Source: a virus
Virus record (IMG/VR): IMGVR_UViG_3300028829_003074
Location: 1 to 28,589 of that record
Length of the DNA stretch: 28,589 bases
Strand: one strand, 5' to 3'
Shown: piece by piece, positions 348 to 23,058 of the stretch
Layout of the letters: the number at the start of each line of letters is the position of its first letter
How positions within the stretch are numbered: position 1 is the stretch's first letter
Position numbers and translations under genes: made by a program
Notes under the pieces: generated by a model
Told to the model about the DNA's origin: nothing
The model's input: the letters and a program-made list of their open reading frames with translations, nothing else
Databases searched by the model: none

Positions 348-851
348 TTATTTAGCGATACATTCTGCTGTCACTAAAGCATTATATGTACCAGCTGGGA
401 ACGATTTATTATACCCATAACTTGCGGTTGATGCTACACTAAACCATGTGCTGCCTGCTAATGTTAAATCAAATTCTGTAACATTATCGTATTCTATTTT
501 AGCATCGTTATAAGCGGACATTCCTGACACAGACGTTTGTGTTACACTTGTACTGCCAGACCAAGCCACCGTATCAGACAATGATGGGCCTGATGAAAAT
601 GATATTGGATGTGAAATCTTTGCTTTGAAAAAGTCAGCAGATGCAACATCATAGCGGATAACGGGTAGAACCCCGCCGTCAGAAGGAGTAGTACTTAGTT
701 TGTTTGGTAACGGGTTTCCGTAAATACCAGGTGTGTCTGTATATATTGAACACTTAGCTTCAACTGTACCGGTGATGGGCACGGACTCCGCTAACGTTGA
801 CCCGCCGATAACTGCTGCTGCTATTGTTAAAAGTAATCCATTTCTTAACAT
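348..851 (-). CDS. Exported pilin/spore-coat-U-like protein
   Basis: 167 aa. I chose ATG 851 rather than the upstream in-frame ATG 893 because GGAGA lies 7 bases before it and the signal peptide (MLRNGLLLTIAAAVIGGSTLA) begins there. The mature part is about 145 residues, rich in Ser, Thr, Gly and short beta-strands, with one Cys near the start (EAKCSI) and one at the end (TAECIAK). That two-cysteine layout and the terminal strand (AGTYNALVTAEC) are typical of secreted pilin-like proteins with one disulfide. The function in a phage is not known; it may be put on the infected cell surface or carried by virions. It overlaps no neighbour once the short start is used and is probably cotranscribed with the two exported proteins upstream. 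Confidence 0.65.
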   Translation of the reverse strand: MLRNGLLLTIAAAVIGGSTLAESVPITGTVEAKCSIYTDTPGIYGNPLPNKLSTTPSDGGVLPVIRYDVASADFFKAKISHPISFSSGPSLSDTVAWSGSTSVTQTSVSGMSAYNDAKIEYDNVTEFDLTLAGSTWFSVASTASYGYNKSFPAGTYNALVTAECIAK

Positions 852-882
852 ATGAATTTCTCCATTTCTTTTGTTTATTTTA

Positions 883-1773
883 CTAGTTATCATACTGTAA
901 TCTTACCATGGATCTATGGGCTGAATCCGATGCCAGGTTTCTCATAGCTCTAGCATTGTCGGGTAATTTTGTATCAGATAAAACTACCGACTCGTTATAC
1001 ACCCCACCTTGTATTTCCGTTACATAATATTGGTCAAATTTTTGAACAGATGCAAGCTGTTCTAAAATCTGTGCTTGGGCATTAGGGTCTGCAAGTTTAT
1101 CCAAACTAACTTCTCCATTTAAATCTTTTATTTCACTGCTTTCGTCTTCTTCATTTTCTGCCGTTTCAGTTTTTTCTTCATCATCTATTTCAGCGCTATT
1201 TTCTAATGCAGCCTGAACTAATTCGTCAAAGAACGGATCATTTGGATCCAAGTCATCTGTTAATAATCCATTTTCCTTAAGCCAGTCGTATAATGACTGA
1301 ACATATCCAGGACATGTAGGATCCGTGAGCGGTATGAAACAAGGATCGGTCATATAAGAATATAAAACTGTTGGATCAGTTACCGTCCCTTTACCTTCGG
1401 TTGCTATTTCTCCTAATCCAAAATATTCTATTGGTATGTTATCAATAGGAATTCCTTTATTAATTGTATTCCCAGGAACGCCTGACCAATCATCTGTTTG
1501 TTGAAATATGTACCCTTCACCTCGAGCATCTTCGTTTTGAATTGATACCGTAAAATCGTCTTCTGTTTGTTTTTCTACAGTATAGTTGTATACTATTCCA
1601 TTTATCTTAAGACCGCCAGGTATAGGGACTACGTCTTTCATATCCCACGTCATACCGTTCGCCGCGGCATTATTTGTTACTCCGTACTCAGGAACTGTTT
1701 CAGAGTAAGAGTAAGAGGAGAAGGGTCCCAATAAGACCACCGCCGATAAGAGTAGACTTCGTACCGTCATCAA
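883..1773 (-). CDS. Exported protein, acidic C-terminal half, function unknown
   Basis: 296 aa with a signal peptide (MMTVRSLLLSAVVLLGPFSS, cleavage near residue 24). Residues ~30-150 form a beta-rich domain with many Gly, Asp and aromatic residues (for example IFQQTDDWSGVPGNTINKG). A short Cys pair follows (DPCFIPLTDPTCPGY, about residues 143-157), then a strongly acidic low-complexity stretch (about 190-220, rich in E and D) and a charged C-terminus. I recall similar proteins in marine T4-like phages but no biochemical role. The start lies inside the 3' end of the preceding gene: a 74-base overlap in a different frame, so translation is probably coupled. No strong ribosome site is visible beyond AAAAGG about 12 bases upstream. 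Confidence 0.7.
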   Translation of the reverse strand: MMTVRSLLLSAVVLLGPFSSYSYSETVPEYGVTNNAAANGMTWDMKDVVPIPGGLKINGIVYNYTVEKQTEDDFTVSIQNEDARGEGYIFQQTDDWSGVPGNTINKGIPIDNIPIEYFGLGEIATEGKGTVTDPTVLYSYMTDPCFIPLTDPTCPGYVQSLYDWLKENGLLTDDLDPNDPFFDELVQAALENSAEIDDEEKTETAENEEDESSEIKDLNGEVSLDKLADPNAQAQILEQLASVQKFDQYYVTEIQGGVYNESVVLSDTKLPDNARAMRNLASDSAHRSMVRLQYDN

Positions 1774-2242
1774 ATTTCAATGCCTTTTTATTACCTGGTT
1801 GTTCGTCTTCGTTTTGTTTCCACATTGCTCGGGCTTGTTTGCCAATCATCCCATCATATGGACAGGGTGTTCCTGCCTGCATCATTGCATCAAAAATCCT
1901 TGGGTCTTGACACATAACAGATACCGCGGCAACCTTCATTCCCATATCATATAATGTTTTAGCATTTTTTAGTTTTTCACAGTTCAAATCACGTACAGTC
2001 TTTCCACCTGATATACCAAGTATTTGCGTTTGCACCGCGCCTGACACACCAACAGTACATAAGTCAGAATTAGAATTGTTAATTGAAGGGGAGATCGCCG
2101 AGGGTGGCGGCGAGTTAACAGTCGTATTAGACGTTGTGTCCGACTTAATTGTGCTTTCTGACGTGTTTTCAGTTACAATAGCCTGTGCTGATACAATAGT
2201 AGACATTAATATAAAACTTATAGTCAATAATAGCTTTTTCAT
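1700..2242 (-). CDS. Exported protein with C-terminal hydrophobic anchor
   Basis: 180 aa. Signal peptide at residues 1-20 (MKKLLLTISFILMSTIVSAQ), a Ser/Thr/Asn-rich linker with PPPSAISPS (about 48-56), a compact domain with four Cys (DLCTVGVSG, DLNCEKLK, VMCQDPR, GTPCPYDG; about 60-130), a charged stretch, and a C-terminal hydrophobic segment of Gly and Leu ending in seven Leu. The architecture fits an envelope-anchored or self-associating surface protein. It is the first gene after a late-type TATAAATA box (2283-2276), 34 bases upstream of its ATG, so it heads a late operon of exported proteins. I do not recognise an enzymatic domain. Confidence 0.7.
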   Translation of the reverse strand: MKKLLLTISFILMSTIVSAQAIVTENTSESTIKSDTTSNTTVNSPPPSAISPSINNSNSDLCTVGVSGAVQTQILGISGGKTVRDLNCEKLKNAKTLYDMGMKVAAVSVMCQDPRIFDAMMQAGTPCPYDGMIGKQARAMWKQNEDEQPGNKKALKFDDGTKSTLIGGGLIGTLLLLLLL

Positions 2243-2275
2243 TGCACTTATCCATGTTTTTCCATATATTGTAGC

Positions 2276-2283
2276 TATTTATA
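2276..2283 (-). promoter_or_regulatory. T4-type late promoter for exported-protein operon
   Basis: On the minus strand this reads TATAAATA, the exact T4 late promoter box recognised by gp55, which is encoded at 22564. It sits 34 bases before the ATG at 2242 and directly abuts the T-tract of the terminator after the porin-like gene. A second TATAAATA is at 2323-2316, before the terminator hairpin, so transcripts from it would be expected to stop there. Confidence 0.65.
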
Positions 2284-2310
2284 AAAAAAGAGGGGCTTGA
2301 GCCCCCCTTT
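2284..2310 (-). terminator. Rho-independent terminator after porin-like gene
   Basis: On the minus strand AAAGGGGGGC pairs with GCCCCTCTTT around the loop TCAA (ten pairs, one G-T), followed by an unbroken run of T. It lies 26 bases after the stop of the gene at 2337 and separates it from the exported-protein operon. Confidence 0.85.
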
Positions 2311-2336
2311 CACAGTATTTATATTATAGTTACTAA

Positions 2337-3134
2337 TTAGAAATTAAAACCAACAGTTACAGTTGGTGAAAATTCTTCTTTATCAATGTTATAGTTAACG
2401 CCTGTACCCAACTCAGCGCCGCCAATCATATATTCGTATTCGCCGCCGATATTTTGTAACATTTCAGCGTCATCACCGTTAACATAAGCAGTGACACCAA
2501 ACGCATCTCCGACAATTTCGTATCCAATTTTTTCATTGTCTACGTCATATGTTAATGCGCTACCAAGTTTACCGATGCCTAAATCGATTCCACCTACAGC
2601 ACCGCCGACAACGATGTTTTCGCTATCCATGTTATAGTCACCAGCTGCAGTTACAGCGAAGCGACCAAGATCTAATGTATATGCACCTTGGATATTGCTA
2701 ATGTCAGTAATATCTTTTGTCCAATCTGTAAAACCAACCGCAACCGTTGCATCGCCTACTGTTACCGCCAATGATTCTGTCATTGCTGGTGTTGCGAGTG
2801 TACCGTGAGTTGAATTTTCTGCTTCTACCATTACGCCGTTATCGTCACCTAAAGCAATACCGATACCTGCGAGGCCTGTGCCAACAGTCCAACTGTCTAG
2901 AGTAACAGCGTTTCCGTCAGTCGCGCTCAAGTCTAAATCAACAGTTGCCATTCCGGACGCGTTAATATCTAGATCCAAAGCCATAGCACCGCCCCATTTG
3001 TCATCGGCAGTTTCGGCAAACTTGAGTTCAACTTCGCCAGATAGTGTTGGGCCCATAGGAGCCGCATTGTCTTCAGCAAATGCACCGCTAGCGATTACTG
3101 ACGCGATTGCTGTTGTGATGAATAAATTACGCAT
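2337..3134 (-). CDS. Porin-like outer-membrane beta-barrel protein
   Basis: 265 aa. A classical signal peptide (MRNLFITTAIASVIASGAFA, cleavage after residue 20) is followed by ~245 residues of alternating polar/hydrophobic strands separated by Asp/Gly/Asn-rich turns. The chain ends in the strand PTVTVGFNF; a terminal Phe in an amphipathic strand is the usual outer-membrane insertion signal. Together these suggest a porin-like barrel of 12-16 strands in the outer membrane of the infected cell. Codon use is richer in G and C than the neighbours, hinting at a bacterial origin. A strong terminator follows. It could instead be a virion or secreted beta-protein; I am confident of export and beta structure, less of pore function. 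Confidence 0.65.
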   Translation of the reverse strand: MRNLFITTAIASVIASGAFAEDNAAPMGPTLSGEVELKFAETADDKWGGAMALDLDINASGMATVDLDLSATDGNAVTLDSWTVGTGLAGIGIALGDDNGVMVEAENSTHGTLATPAMTESLAVTVGDATVAVGFTDWTKDITDISNIQGAYTLDLGRFAVTAAGDYNMDSENIVVGGAVGGIDLGIGKLGSALTYDVDNEKIGYEIVGDAFGVTAYVNGDDAEMLQNIGGEYEYMIGGAELGTGVNYNIDKEEFSPTVTVGFNF

Positions 3135-3174: not shown

Positions 3175-3512
3175 CCACTTTTCTGTTGCTAAGCAAGTGG
3201 CCAGCTCCCTGTGTTATGCCGCTAGGGCGTAACCAGATGGTGCAAAATTATTGTTTGCATTTGTAGTTTTTGGCTTAATAACGTATGCCAACACGGTAAT
3301 CTACTCTCATCTCTCTACGCCAGTCGATCCTATTTCGACCCCATCATAAACACACTACTTGCAGTATCTTCCTCTGCGTAACCTCTATAGTAGGAGGTAA
3401 CTTAGTTTATTCGTAGCCTTGCCACTTCTAGTTCAAAGCAGTGTGTTTATGGTGGAGTCGCTGGGTACCGCCCCCAGGTCCTGTCCGCATGTTGAATTGT
3501 ATCAACGATTAC
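3175..3512 (-). ncRNA. ssrA: Circularly permuted (two-piece) tmRNA, alphaproteobacterial type
   Basis: Reading leftward, the acceptor piece comes first: T-arm CTGGG-GGCGGTA-CCCAG (within 3461-3480), then acceptor strand CGACTCC and an encoded ACCA ending at 3450. A processed spacer follows (3343-3449) whose ends pair over ten bases (agtgtgttta 3440-3449 with taaacacact 3347-3356). The coding piece begins at 3342 with GGGGTCGA; GGGGTCG pairs with CGACTCC over seven bases (one G-U), rebuilding the acceptor stem. The tag frame is 3258-3214: GCA resume codon, peptide ANNNFAPSGYALAA, stop TAA. The hydrophobic ALAA end is the usual protease signal. The RNA rescues stalled ribosomes. A hairpin with arms 3195-3200 and 3175-3180 closes the 3' end. 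Exact mature ends are estimates. Confidence 0.93.
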
Positions 3513-3516
3513 TAGA

Positions 3517-3546
3517 TATATATACAACTTTTAGTTAGAATGTCAA
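3517..3546 (-). promoter_or_regulatory. Sigma70-type promoter for tmRNA
   Basis: Minus strand TTGACA (3546-3541) followed after 16-18 bases by TATATA/ATATAT. The predicted start near 3508-3512 is just before the acceptor piece. It begins TTGACATTCTAACTA, like the promoter of the DNA polymerase gene. Confidence 0.7.
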
Positions 3547-3564
3547 TATTAAAAAAAATATTTT

Positions 3565-3675
3565 TTATACTGTTGCATTATTATCAATTATGTACTGCAT
3601 TATTTTGTAAGGCAAATAACATATGTACCCATACACAGCCCAAAATGCCAAATTATAAATTATTATTTCAACCAT
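3565..3675 (-). CDS. Small hydrophobic protein
   Basis: 36 aa (MVEIIIYNLAFWAVYGYICY, then LPYKIMQYIIDNNATV). The ATG overlaps the last codons of kdsA by 8 bases, which suggests translational coupling. The first ~20 residues could form one membrane helix. No family is recognised; the short length keeps the confidence modest. Confidence 0.4.
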   Translation of the reverse strand: MVEIIIYNLAFWAVYGYICYLPYKIMQYIIDNNATV

Positions 3676-4450
3676 TAGAAATATCTCCTGAATAAGAATA
3701 CTTAACAATATCACGCACAACATTTTCAAAATCTTTAAGATGTAACATGTTAGGACCGTCGCTTGGAGCGCTGTCTGGATAGGGATGTACTTCTAAGAAA
3801 AAACTAGTAATCCCAAGAGCGGCCCCAGCACGAGAAAGATGAGGAACATACTTACGATTTCCACCAGACGAGGTTCCGTTTGCTCCTGGTAATTGGACCG
3901 AGTGCGTAACATCATATACAAATCGTGGCCCAAGATTAGAAAGGAGATCGTGCATGCCAGCGAAATCATTAACCAAACGTCCGTACCCAAAACTTGTTCC
4001 TCTCTCAGTTATCCAAACTTCTTTTGCCTTCTTTGTTTTACTTAATATACCATCAACATCTTGAGGTGCAAGGAATTGTCCTTTTTTAATATTTACAATA
4101 GATCCAGTTAAACATGCTTCTACAATTAAGTCGGTCTGTCTACACAAAAAGGCTGGGATTTGTAATACATCTACTATATCTTTTAAATACCATACTTGTT
4201 CTTCTTGATGAACATCAGTTAATGTTTTAACGTTATACGTATCTTTTAGAACTGAAATGTCTTGTATGAATGACTGCAAGCCTACACCTCTAACGCCTTT
4301 TATGTTCGTGCGATTAGCTTTATCAAAACTTGCTTTAAATATATATTCAGCGCCGTACTTATCACACACACGTTTACATTCTTTAGCAATCATAGACGAT
4401 TGTGCAAGAGTTTCGTGTTGACATGGACCGGCAATAATTCTTATAGTCAT
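3668..4450 (-). CDS. kdsA: 3-deoxy-D-manno-octulosonate-8-phosphate synthase
   Basis: 260 aa, the usual length is ~260-285. It condenses phosphoenolpyruvate with D-arabinose-5-phosphate to KDO-8-phosphate, the first committed step to the KDO of lipopolysaccharide. Visible family motifs in order: AGPC (7-10), FKASFDKANR (38-47), TDVHQEEQ (78-85), QIPAFLCRQTDL (97-108), NIKKGQFLAPQ, GTSFGYGRLVNDF, DVTHSVQLPG, LEVHPYPDSAPSDGPN. Cys10 in AGPC, with the His of DVTHS, the Glu of LEVH and the Asp of PSDGPN, is the ligand set of the metal-dependent class of the enzyme. It follows the cupin gene with a TAATG overlap and precedes a 36-aa ORF. In a phage it would raise or redirect KDO supply during infection; that role is inference. 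Confidence 0.93.
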   Translation of the reverse strand: MTIRIIAGPCQHETLAQSSMIAKECKRVCDKYGAEYIFKASFDKANRTNIKGVRGVGLQSFIQDISVLKDTYNVKTLTDVHQEEQVWYLKDIVDVLQIPAFLCRQTDLIVEACLTGSIVNIKKGQFLAPQDVDGILSKTKKAKEVWITERGTSFGYGRLVNDFAGMHDLLSNLGPRFVYDVTHSVQLPGANGTSSGGNRKYVPHLSRAGAALGITSFFLEVHPYPDSAPSDGPNMLHLKDFENVVRDIVKYSYSGDISNG

Positions 4451-4839: not shown

Positions 4840-5337
4840 TTAATTCAACGAAAGCTTAATTCTAACTTTCTCACCAACATCGTACCTACGATCTGTATCT
4901 TGGGAATATGAAAAACCGTTATATGTATATTTTATACGATAGTATGATACTACAGGATCGTTAACAGATTTTTTTACCTTTTCACAACGTTCCTCGTACC
5001 TATATCCTGTGATTACTTGTTTACCAGCGTTTCCATTTTCTGCTGAAATAATACCTCCAAGTACTGCACCGGCCGCGGCGCCGCTATCTTTACCTGATAC
5101 GGTACCTCCTAGCAAACCACCTAAAATCATTCCGGCTAATACATCTCCACCTGACGCCCCACCACCTTGTGTTCTGCCATAGACAGGTACTTCAACATCA
5201 TAACACTCCGTTGTGTATGCAGTTACGTAGCGGTCAATGTATACCGGTTTCACTGAAGTGATTGTTGCGTAATCGTTGCCATTTGCGTGTGCTGGGGCAC
5301 ATGCCGCCAAAGCTAATGCAAACATTATTTTCTTCAT
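4840..5337 (-). CDS. Glycine-zipper surface protein (17 kDa antigen-like)
   Basis: 165 aa. Signal peptide MKKIMFALALAACAPAHA; LAAC at 10-13 could be a lipobox, or cleavage could be after residue 18. The centre (about residues 58-105) is a glycine zipper: GGGASGGDVLAGMILGGLL, then GKDSGAAAGAVLGGIISAENG, as in the 2TM domain of the rickettsial 17 kDa antigen. Flanking regions are beta-rich with Tyr and a Cys on each side (TECYDVEVPVYGR, YEERCEKVKK). The C-terminal half (ISYYRIKYTYNGFSY-like strands) resembles the same family. It is probably anchored in the outer membrane of the infected cell. A near-perfect sigma70 promoter lies 27-55 bases upstream of the ATG. Confidence 0.8.
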   Translation of the reverse strand: MKKIMFALALAACAPAHANGNDYATITSVKPVYIDRYVTAYTTECYDVEVPVYGRTQGGGASGGDVLAGMILGGLLGGTVSGKDSGAAAGAVLGGIISAENGNAGKQVITGYRYEERCEKVKKSVNDPVVSYYRIKYTYNGFSYSQDTDRRYDVGEKVRIKLSLN

Positions 5338-5363: not shown

Positions 5364-5392
5364 ATTATAATAGGATATGGCCCGAATGTCAA
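5364..5392 (-). promoter_or_regulatory. Consensus sigma70-type early promoter
   Basis: Minus strand TTGACA (5392-5387), 17-base spacer, TATAAT (5369-5364): both boxes match consensus exactly. The -35 box contains the TGA stop of the upstream sulfotransferase gene. The -10 box lies in a 14-base perfect palindrome (CCTATTATAATAGG, 5361-5374). It should drive the glycine-zipper gene, cupin and kdsA. Confidence 0.85.
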
Positions 5393-6027
5393 CAAAAATA
5401 TTCTCCCCATACATCATAATCATCTTTATATATTTTCTGTATAAGATTAATGTCTTTTTCTTTATCATCATAAACTGGTTTTTCTTTAGTTTTTCGGGCA
5501 GTCGTTTTTTCTAAAAATGCAGGAATATCTGGACATCCACTCGTGTCTGATATGATAGGTGTTAAAACATCATTAATATCCTCAGAACATATAACCTTTG
5601 TATATATACTAGGATCATAACCTATTTGATTGCATTGCGACTCAGTGTGAATTTTAATATCAGGGTTCTTTCTCGCATAATCTATATTATGAATAAATTT
5701 TGAAAACGTTTCAAGATGATCTTTTAAACCGCCTTTATTTCTTAAAACAACCCTATCCTTATATGCACTAAATAATCTATCTATTGGGTTTCTTACTATT
5801 GCTATTCTTATTGGATATTCATTAAGAATTGATTCATTCAAATCACTAAAACTGTATTCTTTCCAATAGCCCCACTCAAACATCTGTACTCGATCTTTTC
5901 GGCGATGAAAATATCCAAGGAGTGGATATCCTAAATTCATAATCATAGAAGTTGATCCACATTTAAGACTTGTGGCCACCATAATTTTATTCTTATTTTC
6001 GTATGTTACACATTGTATATTATTCAT
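5389..6027 (-). CDS. Sulfotransferase family protein
   Basis: 212 aa. The 5'-phosphosulfate-binding loop is LKCGSTSM (21-28) and the 3'-phosphate-binding motif is IVRNPIDRLFSAYKD (about 77-91), the two signatures of PAPS-dependent sulfotransferases. The C-terminus (IQKIYKDDYDVWGEYF) matches the end of the carbohydrate sulfotransferase group (Sulfotransfer_2), where IYxxDYxxF/W is common. The expected reaction is transfer of sulfate from PAPS to a sugar hydroxyl; the acceptor, perhaps a surface glycan, is unknown. The start is one base after the stop of the upstream gene. Its stop is inside the next promoter. Confidence 0.82.
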   Translation of the reverse strand: MNNIQCVTYENKNKIMVATSLKCGSTSMIMNLGYPLLGYFHRRKDRVQMFEWGYWKEYSFSDLNESILNEYPIRIAIVRNPIDRLFSAYKDRVVLRNKGGLKDHLETFSKFIHNIDYARKNPDIKIHTESQCNQIGYDPSIYTKVICSEDINDVLTPIISDTSGCPDIPAFLEKTTARKTKEKPVYDDKEKDINLIQKIYKDDYDVWGEYFC

Positions 6028-9096: not shown

Positions 9097-9435
9097 TTAT
9101 GCGGCTAATGAATTTAAATTCATTTCAACTTCTTCAAAGCCGCGTTCTAGGCGTGAAGTATAGGTGTCAGTATAGAACCATGCTTCACCATCAAAAAGAT
9201 AAAGATAATCAGATCCACAATGTTTATCACCACACTGAAGGAAAGCTTTTACTGAACCATATTCAACAGGATCTTCAGTGTGAACTGCTGCTCGCAAATC
9301 GTGGTCAAGGTCGGTTGTTAAACTTGAAAGATAACCGGCGTTTGCTACGGCATTTGCTCGCTCAGGAGTGTTATATGACTCAACAAGAAGACGGCCGTTG
9401 TAGCTCAGATAACCATCATAATGGCAATATGTCGC
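9097..9435 (-). pseudogene. Phage YCHYDGY-type protein gene with 5' end lost by rearrangement
   Basis: The body (ATYCHYDGYLSYNGRLLVESY, about 110 residues in all, with YLSSL and a central CGDKHCG pair) resembles a common phage family whose members normally begin with ~15 residues such as MxTRSxI before YCHxDGY. Here that N-terminus is missing. Upstream of 9435 the frame runs into an inverted copy of bilin-reductase DNA; the only possible start there is TTG at 9468 with no ribosome site, and no ATG occurs until near the C-terminus. The original promoter seems cut too: TTGACA survives at 9589-9584 but the -10 box is gone. The gene is probably not expressed properly in this sequence. Confidence 0.65.
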
Positions 9436-17137: not shown

Positions 17138-17313
17138 CTTGACACCAATGGCTTAGAATTAATTGCATCGTGATAATCGCCTGACTTGTAATAATCTCGG
17201 CTTGCTTCTTCTTTAATCATTATACCATTACGTATACGATAGGTAATAATTTCACGCCTGATTACGCCACCAGTGTCGGCATCAAACGCATTCTTAAACG
17301 GTCCTTCAGTCAT
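17134..17313 (-). CDS. Small conserved phage protein, unknown
   Basis: 59 aa (MTEGPFKNAFDADTGGVIRR...). A beta-hairpin-like start, then EIITYRIRNGIMIKEEASRD and a YYKSGDYHD segment that is common in small phage proteins. It overlaps the cytidylyltransferase stop by 8 bases. Confidence 0.55.
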   Translation of the reverse strand: MTEGPFKNAFDADTGGVIRREIITYRIRNGIMIKEEASRDYYKSGDYHDAINSKPLVSR

Positions 17314-17713
17314 TGCAAACTCTCTTTCTTAAATCAGATGTACTAAATCTATGATCTCGTTTATTGAAATATAATTCTATGCCGCGCTTACGACACATGT
17401 CTTTACCTGTAAAATCTTTTTCTTTGTATTCAACTCCAAGTACTCTAATGTCTATATGATACATTGATAATATATCTTCTAGATCTCGCTCGTATTGGTA
17501 TGGAATTATTTCGTCAACATATCTTACTGCTTTTAATTGAGTATAACGCTCAACAATAGTTTGGATAGGTGCATTCTTGTCTTGTCGCTCATCCGCAGGA
17601 TTTAACTGTAATCCTACAATCAAATAATCACACTGATCTTTTGCGTCTCTTAACATTTGTATATGACCTGCGTGAAGTAAGTCAAAGGCTGATGCGGTAA
17701 ATCCTACTTTCAT
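17306..17713 (-). CDS. Cytidylyltransferase-like nucleotidyltransferase
   Basis: 135 aa. Starts at ATG 17713, whose ATGA overlaps the stop of the upstream HAD gene; the longer in-frame start is inside that gene and is rejected. MKVGFTASAFDLLHAGHIQM carries the HxGH motif (14-17) of the glycerol-3-phosphate cytidylyltransferase (TagD)/RfaE-C type. The end, HRFSTSDLRKRV, corresponds to the ISTT-type loop that also contacts nucleotide. It should activate a sugar- or polyol-phosphate with CTP (or ATP). Together with the phosphomannomutase-like gene it suggests a short sugar-nucleotide route; substrate unknown. Confidence 0.82.
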   Translation of the reverse strand: MKVGFTASAFDLLHAGHIQMLRDAKDQCDYLIVGLQLNPADERQDKNAPIQTIVERYTQLKAVRYVDEIIPYQYERDLEDILSMYHIDIRVLGVEYKEKDFTGKDMCRKRGIELYFNKRDHRFSTSDLRKRVCND

Positions 17714-18414
17714 TTGGTAATTCTTTTCAAGATATCCCAAGCGTCTTTCCAATCCTTTACCTGGTAAAACTTACCTGGGTATTTAATTGCGTTTGCGAGA
17801 GGATAGTCATTCCCGCCTGGTTCTGTTTTATCACCAAAGAAAATGATGTGGTCAGAACCATTATCAAAGTCATCTAAAATTTGGCTTTTATCTCTGCCTG
17901 TATTATAAATGTCAATACCGGTTTCACCACCAATAGTTGCAGTAATATTTTTAAACTCAGAATTAATTTGATATGCAATGCTTTCACGTTCACGATTTGA
18001 TTTATCGTATATGACGTATTCAGCCCTTTGATACATATTAGCATTTCTACCTACGATACTAAAATTCCAAGTACCTGGCCGTTTTTCAATATGGTTACCA
18101 GTTCTTAATGGGAAAGGACTAGACTGAAGCCAACCTTCTAAAATATTCATAAGTTCAGGGTCAGGATCAAAGGACGCGGCGTTTACCACTTTACCACGAA
18201 AACGAGTTTGGTTACCGCTACAACTATAGCACGTAACAACATTTTCACAAATTTCTGTACCAAGCTGTTCTACTGTTTTTGGATAGTCAGAACCAGTTAC
18301 AAGCCATACTTTTTCTTTGTTTATAAAATTAAGAAACCACTCTTTAAATTGAGGATTCATTACTTGTCTACTTGGAGTAAGAGTACCATCAACATCAAAA
18401 ATATATTTTATCAT
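17710..18414 (-). CDS. HAD-family phosphomannomutase-like protein (eukaryotic PMM type)
   Basis: 234 aa. HAD motif I FDVDGTLT (6-13) with nucleophile Asp7 and acid Asp9. Further signatures typical of the eukaryotic-type phosphomannomutases: IEKRPGTWNFSIVGR (about 108-122), GGETGIDIYNTGRDKSQIL (about 159-177) and IIFFGDKTEPGGNDYPLANA. These enzymes interconvert mannose-6-phosphate and mannose-1-phosphate, the precursor of GDP-mannose. I start at ATG 18414 because it overlaps the stop of the small upstream ORF (ATGA) and has AAAAGGA before it; the longer frame begins inside that ORF. A plain sugar phosphatase remains possible. Confidence 0.85.
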   Translation of the reverse strand: MIKYIFDVDGTLTPSRQVMNPQFKEWFLNFINKEKVWLVTGSDYPKTVEQLGTEICENVVTCYSCSGNQTRFRGKVVNAASFDPDPELMNILEGWLQSSPFPLRTGNHIEKRPGTWNFSIVGRNANMYQRAEYVIYDKSNRERESIAYQINSEFKNITATIGGETGIDIYNTGRDKSQILDDFDNGSDHIIFFGDKTEPGGNDYPLANAIKYPGKFYQVKDWKDAWDILKRITK

Positions 18415-18545
18415 TTTTCCTTTTTCTCGTTTTTCATTTTTCCTATCCAAGGCGTAGCATCATCGCAAGGATCATCATAAGAAGTTATCGGCTTTTCAGT
18501 TTTTTCATTATTATCTTTTTCTGGGAATCTTCCATCCAAAACCAT
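18411..18545 (-). CDS. Small acidic/charged protein
   Basis: 44 aa (MVLDGRFPEKDNNEKTEKPI, then TSYDDPCDDATPWIGKMKNE and KKEK). It begins inside the DUF1289 gene in another frame with a strong AAGGAG ribosome site and ends in an ATGA overlap with the phosphomannomutase-like gene. Unknown function. Confidence 0.5.
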   Translation of the reverse strand: MVLDGRFPEKDNNEKTEKPITSYDDPCDDATPWIGKMKNEKKEK

Positions 18546-22531: not shown

Positions 22532-22563
22532 AAACTAACACATAAAAAATGAGGAGAGTAGCA

Positions 22564-23058
22564 ATGGCTCGAAGAGCAAAACGCAACTACGTCAACAACC
22601 CAGATCTTTTAGAGGCTCTTATAAAATACAAGAAGCAAATTAGAGATGCTGAGGATCAAGGTGACGAACCACCAAGAGTACCTAATTACATCGGCGATTG
22701 CATTTACCAAATATCAAATAGGCTGGCGACAAAACCAAACTTCTCAGGTTATACTTATAAAGAAGATATGATCATGGACGGTATTGAAAATTGTCTATTA
22801 TATATTAACAATTTTGATCCTAATAAATCTTCAAATCCATTTGCATACTTTACACAAATTATTTGGTACGCATTCCTTCGCCGTATTGCCAAAGAGAAAA
22901 AACAAATGTACATTAGATTTAAGTCTTCGCATAATTTGGTTGCAGCAGGAGGAACATATGAATCAAGCGAGGTACAGCTACATTTAAATACAAATGCTGA
23001 TTATATTAACAGCTTTATACAAGACTTTGAAGAAAAACTAAATAAGAATAAAAAATGA
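22564..23058 (+). CDS. 55: Late-transcription sigma factor gp55
   Basis: 164 aa (T4 gp55 185 aa). It replaces host sigma70 on RNA polymerase and recognises TATAAATA late promoters, several of which are in this window. Conserved stretch DCIYQISNRLATKPNFSGYT (about 46-65), then IENCLLYINNFDPNKSSNPF and AYFTQIIWYAFLRRIAKEKK, corresponding to the region 2-like core. ATG 22564 is chosen over 22549 because GAGGAGAG precedes it at the right distance and the earlier ATG would be about 10 bases from the predicted transcript start. Its stop overlaps the gp47 start (ATGA). Confidence 0.93.
   Translation: MARRAKRNYVNNPDLLEALIKYKKQIRDAEDQGDEPPRVPNYIGDCIYQISNRLATKPNFSGYTYKEDMIMDGIENCLLYINNFDPNKSSNPFAYFTQIIWYAFLRRIAKEKKQMYIRFKSSHNLVAAGGTYESSEVQLHLNTNADYINSFIQDFEEKLNKNKK

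Follow-up and report, generated by a model that had tools for sequence, protein, structure and literature searches.

Two-piece tmRNAs encoded by permuted genes are already known from phages. A study of 2022 counted 133 distinct tmRNA structures from phages, 53 of them two-piece, and 50 of these 53 came from marine or aquatic phages, according to the passages of PMC9004378 that treat them. The same passages report the marine myophage Melnitz (a Methylophilales phage) and others among the carriers, in line with the earlier note on this DNA, which mentions tmRNAs in related marine phages. Among bacteria, Caulobacter has a two-piece tmRNA known to be functional, and processing by RNase P and tRNase Z has been proposed (reviewed in PMC3985003). 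The element described here is an ordinary further example of the phage-borne class. The novelty of the current study lies in the promoter, a composite element that, as judged from sequence, is common to most of the viral two-piece tmRNAs sampled, and which the literature passages on related phages, partial in their coverage, do not mention.

The window, i.e. the whole stretch of DNA analysed, is the 28,589-base IMG/VR viral record IMGVR_UViG_3300028829_003074, and the tmRNA gene lies on its minus strand. The covariance-model search proposed in the earlier note gave matches above the Rfam gathering thresholds for both RF04321 (tmRNA_permuted; nt 3512–3214, 116 bits with a cut-off of 47, E 2.7e-22) and RF01849 (alpha_tmRNA; nt 3560–3171, 104.7 bits with a cut-off of 50, E 6.9e-28). 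ARAGORN reported four tRNAs in the window and missed the tmRNA gene. The gene order is permuted, with the acceptor piece encoded upstream of the coding piece and the ends of the two pairing as the acceptor stem. The acceptor piece (nt 3512–3450, minus strand) comprises a GTAATC helix strand, a T-arm (CTGGG/CCCAG), the acceptor 3' strand, the discriminator A and, as had been noticed, an encoded CCA, the 3' end reading CGACTCC-ACCA. Its CGACTCC (nt 3460–3454) forms seven pairs with GGGGTCG (nt 3342–3336) of the coding piece, which is the joining of the two pieces that the earlier note had claimed; these pairs include G3-U70, and the tmRNA therefore has both this alanine identity pair and the encoded CCA.

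The two pieces are separated by a spacer of 107 nt (nt 3449–3343, minus strand), which is expected to be excised and has TGAT directly before the coding piece. Its closing stem of 10–14 bp, TAAACACACT/AGTGTGTTTA, consists of the ten Watson-Crick pairs seen earlier, embedded in a helix of 14 contiguous pairs when wobbles are counted; none of 20,000 shuffled spacers matched it. The coding piece, or mRNA-like RNA (nt 3342–3174, minus strand, 3' end approximate), begins with GGGGTCGAAATAGGATCGAC and carries a putative pseudoknot 5' of the tag (PK1, nt 3295–3271; CGTGT/ATACG and TGGC/GCCA), then the readable tag frame of the earlier note, ANNNFAPSGYALAA followed by TAA (nt 3258–3214, resume codon GCA at nt 3258), and a second pseudoknot (PK2, nt 3207–3174; GAGC/GCTT and GCCACTT/AAGTGGC) around the conserved CAACAGAA. 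The predicted fold of the minus-strand RNA has an energy of -104.4 kcal/mol, compared with -83.0 ± 5.0 in shuffles (z = -4.31). At the level of sequence, the element is confirmed as a complete permuted two-piece tmRNA gene of the alpha type.

Two pattern scans of viral contigs yielded more than 200 further viral two-piece tmRNAs among the matches listed. The first gave at least 120 matches; 123 motif copies were taken, a figure that counts one named phage as well as the window and its own copy, and 107 of them were called permuted. The second used a non-overlapping variant of the motif and brought the combined set to at least 241 permuted genes, among which are duplicates and a small number of bacterial copies. 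The relatives were sampled by alpha-type sequence patterns and are related to one another, so the counts given below are not independent events, and the IMG/VR contigs among them may contain some host DNA.

An explicit structure with 55 pairs, those of the pseudoknots among them, was scored on an alignment of 24 viral sequences, in which 88.6% of cells were paired, compared with 36–45% when the partners were slid. Changes on both sides were seen in 39 of the 55 pairs, a value as high as this occurring in 0 of 500 shuffles, and the cells with such changes numbered 208 as against 61.6 ± 7.1 in shuffles. In the same alignment the acceptor stem and T-arm were 100% paired, the spacer stem 94% and PK2 98% and 86%, while PK1, the weakest part of the model, was paired in about 64% of cells. 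The perfect acceptor pairing is in part due to construction, because the relatives were selected by an acceptor-stem criterion. Compensatory changes were found in all ten pairs of the spacer stem (helix 5), and at acceptor positions 5 and 6 among the permuted genes of the first set. Among the matches listed, all 134 permuted genes in the first set had G3-U70, 142 of 142 genes had the discriminator A, and 183 of 186 coding pieces had a PK2 hairpin of at least 5 bp. Taken from the alignments, this pattern indicates that the tmRNA structure is under selection.

The spacer stem has a median length of 10 bp, compared with 3.7 in shuffles (102 distinct spacers, among the matches listed), and nearly always sets the four 3'-terminal bases of the acceptor piece against a four-base leader, mostly TGAT. 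An equivalent stem is present on alphaproteobacterial replicons of Methylobacterium and Bosea; it is thus a property of the alpha type, and its interpretation as a phage-specific trait was ruled out. Spacer length varies among the relatives. Sinorhizobium phage Phosso (PV764938, L213) has an unannotated permuted tmRNA with a spacer of 410 nt, far longer than the others. At the other extreme, the Rfam match covers just 173 nt over the whole permuted tmRNA of loci L170–L174 (Rfam matches L210 and L211), which implies that both its spacer and the domains of its coding piece are much shortened.

The tag of the window, ANNNFAPSGYALAA, keeps the full ClpXP-type ending, ALAA. Among the matches listed, a few of them bacterial copies, 136 genes with a readable tag gave 91 distinct tags; 75 of these 91 end in LAA and all 91 in AA, the search rule itself having demanded the final A, and 60 begin with ANDN and 7 with ANNN. 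The host could not be named from this feature. A degenerate tag pattern had one match in 84,980 species genomes, and this source of evidence was dropped because the match itself lies on a phage-like contig, in a metagenome-assembled genome (MAG) labelled Muricauda. The phage-like contig L169 (NHBR02000136.1), with a clamp loader-type ATPase, Hsp20 and a permuted tmRNA, sits in the MAG labelled Muricauda sp. TMED12, apparently through a binning error. Similarity was rejected as a guide as well: identity does not exceed 44% between the gp43-type polymerase and those of cyanophages, or 49% between the topoisomerase and those of Vibrio phages, which leaves the window without a close named relative. 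Nor is there support for the view of the earlier note that the tmRNA identifies the host group: the alpha type does not fix the host, because Melnitz has an alpha-type tmRNA and infects OM43, which is not an alphaproteobacterium.

The suggestion that the gene has its own promoter agrees with the sequence upstream. A -35 box, TTGACA (nt 3546–3541, minus strand), in the same position as a box in the viral copies, stands 16 nt before the octamer TATATATA (nt 3524–3517, minus strand), which takes the place of the -10 element and agrees at 7 of 8 positions with the T4 late promoter octamer TATAAATA. The composite of the window is thus TTGACA-N16-TATATATA, with an octamer one base from exact. A simple sigma-70 scan of the window did not list it, because the -10 hexamer ends in A. 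Among the matches listed, exact TATAAATA was found in 117 of 205 distinct viral upstream regions (shuffles averaged 2.0, with a maximum of 6), nearly always 73–82 nt before the CCA end, while beyond 100 nt every 10-nt bin holds at most one octamer; TATATATA is the commonest variant with one mismatch (13 of 37). Exactly 17 nt 5' of these 117 octamers, again among the matches listed, an exact TTGACA or TTTACA occurs in 75 cases (95 with up to one mismatch), and no other spacing exceeds 11 copies. The composite, defined by boxes with at most one mismatch each and 16–18 nt apart, is found at one fixed place in 119 of the 205 regions among the matches listed, and only once elsewhere in those 400-nt regions. 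The same loci contain 349 further TATAAATA sites away from the called tmRNA genes; the -35 box was present at 17 nt in only 10 of them, and at least five of these 10 are, judged by the downstream sequence, tmRNA genes that the motif had overlooked. The combination of a host-type -35 box with a T4 late octamer is rare elsewhere in the loci examined. In L052 (reverse, near nt 9178) and L079 (reverse, near nt 4904) a TTGACA-N17-TATAAATA sequence lies about 1.5 kb from the tmRNA and precedes a short sequence of GTGCAGCTATTGCTGC type, which may be a further small RNA gene with a similar promoter.

The composite is a firm fact of the sequence, and the polymerase that reads it may be of one kind or two. 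It may have come with the gene as an ordinary sigma-70 promoter of host type, in which the -10 element happens to read TATAAATA; gp55 would then be uninvolved and the gene early, and this comes close to an even chance in our estimation. It would account for the exact 17-nt distance in those 75 of 117 copies among the matches listed, and for three large contigs (G005, G003 and G023) that carry the composite or a near copy, in which neither gp55 nor a T4-type polymerase was detected and in which the octamer shows no clear enrichment before other ORFs. It also agrees with the published annotation of Melnitz, given as an early promoter in passages of PMC9004378. A second late-sigma profile, phrog_12791, gave no match, but none in its controls either, and so is uninformative. 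The fixed -35 box and the sharing of the octamer by contigs without detectable gp55 weaken a pure T4 late promoter reading. Against a promoter of sigma-70 type only, however, the ordinary TTGACA-N17 promoters of the same loci mostly end in TATAAT, not TATAAATA, and the octamer is absent from the six alphaproteobacterial ssrA genes compared, all of them GC-rich. In addition, the octamer is enriched before ORFs in the window and in Melnitz, both of which have gp55: five of the six exact octamers in the window precede a same-strand ORF by 20–100 nt, one of them a tail-tube gene, as do 14 of 25 in Melnitz. Because of the former count, the window phage probably uses late promoters, and its gp55-type late sigma factor (nt 22549–23058, plus strand; phrog_234, E 1.7e-60) would use a promoter of this kind. 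We infer that a gp55 polymerase may use the composite promoter, and propose tentatively, with rather less than even confidence, that a single start site is served by the host sigma-70 polymerase early and by the gp55 polymerase late. The promoter pattern gives a direct prediction of when the tmRNA is made: if the dual promoter is real, the phage tmRNA would be produced throughout infection, and not early only, as published for Melnitz.

Whatever the timing, it is very probable that the window carries a working phage copy of an alphaproteobacterial-type permuted tmRNA gene, which would supply the rescue pathway of the host. A single precursor would be transcribed from the promoter at nt 3546–3517, and its ends would pair into the tRNA-like domain. 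In the spacer stem, ACCA and TGAT face each other across an internal loop, an arrangement expected to expose the sites of cleavage, and host tRNA-processing nucleases would excise the 107-nt spacer to give two RNAs that the acceptor stem and the long helix keep joined. Through G3-U70 the tmRNA would be charged by host AlaRS, host SmpB would bring it to ribosomes stalled on broken mRNA, where the tag is added, and the tagged product would be degraded by host ClpXP. The likeliest benefit would be that ribosomes are kept free while the host chromosome is shut down and mRNA fragmented. A search for SmpB was negative in all 15 phage records examined, Melnitz and the window (a 28.6-kb genome fragment) among them, while a control search was positive in ten bacterial genomes; the tmRNA therefore probably works with host SmpB. 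Since phage two-piece tmRNAs are common in public viral contigs and structurally intact, it may be argued that these phages keep ribosome rescue for themselves.

Alternatively, the phage tmRNA could divert trans-translation, its tag marking host proteins for degradation or the RNA out-competing that of the host. Tagging of host proteins has been suggested for Melnitz, in passages of PMC9004378, and the tag is an intact ClpXP-type degron. A tmRNA, however, acts on stalled ribosomes whatever the protein, so that there is no apparent way here in which it could single out host proteins for tagging; moreover the tag ending stays host-type, and the search of the 15 phage records revealed no partner protein. 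Diversion is for these reasons unlikely, and a supplement to host trans-translation is favoured by the intact degron, the intact acceptor and the lack of a detected phage SmpB.

The surroundings of the gene are those of a T4-like phage, as had been stated, with a gp43-type polymerase, gp46/47-type nuclease subunits, a UvsW-like helicase, a T4-type topoisomerase and gp55 in the same window. Directly downstream of the tmRNA, nt 2337–3134 encode a porin-like protein that apparently has a signal peptide, the first of four consecutive proteins of apparent signal-peptide type without Pfam matches (nt 348–3134, minus strand). The stretch from the tmRNA to the porin-like gene showed no terminator-like site, and hence the tmRNA and this gene run may share a transcript. 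Relatives of the porin-like protein are encoded by 31 viral contigs, and a permuted tmRNA was present in all nine of those searched with RF04321 and, where it could be placed, was found some 0.1 to 6 kb upstream in the same orientation; the tmRNA gene thus belongs to this phage lineage. The idea that a host ssrA was captured by chance, or that the contig is chimeric, could appeal to tmRNA genes as common integration sites and to the prophage exchange by which passages of PMC9004378 explain the Melnitz copy, but it is very improbable, being largely refuted by conserved synteny (in many viral contigs the tmRNA precedes the same membrane-protein gene and shares its strand) and by covariation showing selection on the structure, as well as by the phage genes that flank the tmRNA in the window.

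On the other side of the tmRNA is kdsA (nt 3668–4450, minus strand; NF003543, 316.5 bits, above cut-off), for 3-deoxy-8-phosphooctulonate synthase, a lipopolysaccharide Kdo enzyme; it adjoins a cupin gene. Relatives of 58–75% identity occur in 45 viral contigs, and the initial motif detected a tmRNA in none of these 45 kdsA loci; a looser motif found one in two contigs (L194 and L195), both also in the membrane-protein set. Further along, a nucleotidyltransferase (HldE-domain-II or glycerol-3-phosphate cytidylyltransferase-like) overlaps a HAD-IIB-like phosphatase (nt 17306–18450, minus strand), and this pair, together with KdsA, suggests remodelling of surface sugars. A sulfotransferase-family protein (PF03567) is encoded at nt 5389–6027 (minus strand).

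Compared with the described families, the window element matches both RF01849 and RF04321 over their full length, and differs in being phage-borne and in a 107-nt spacer longer than that of the RF01849 consensus. Phage DSS3_MAL1 (MN602268) likewise carries a permuted tmRNA, annotated as ssrA and with the tag ANTNAAPMEMAIAA, but unlike the window it showed neither gp55, nor a T4-type polymerase, nor the octamer. Early and late promoters that overlap, as in RB49 and S-PM2, embody the same idea of a host-type and a late promoter for one gene, although, in the passages of PMC2984593 that describe them, they serve homologues of T4 middle genes and not a tmRNA. Also among the closest counterparts is Melnitz (MZ577095; PMC9004378). 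It has a predicted glutamine riboswitch by ssrA, while none was detected beside the window tmRNA at E values up to 5, and its tag is ANDNYVPVDYALAA where that of the window is ANNNFAPSGYALAA. Its composite, TTGACA-N17-TATAAATA, has an exact octamer, as against the N16 spacing and one-base difference in the window. The two have in common a permuted alpha-type tmRNA, a T4-like marine myophage as its carrier and gp55, and they also share the same spacer-closing stem and a composite promoter at the same place.
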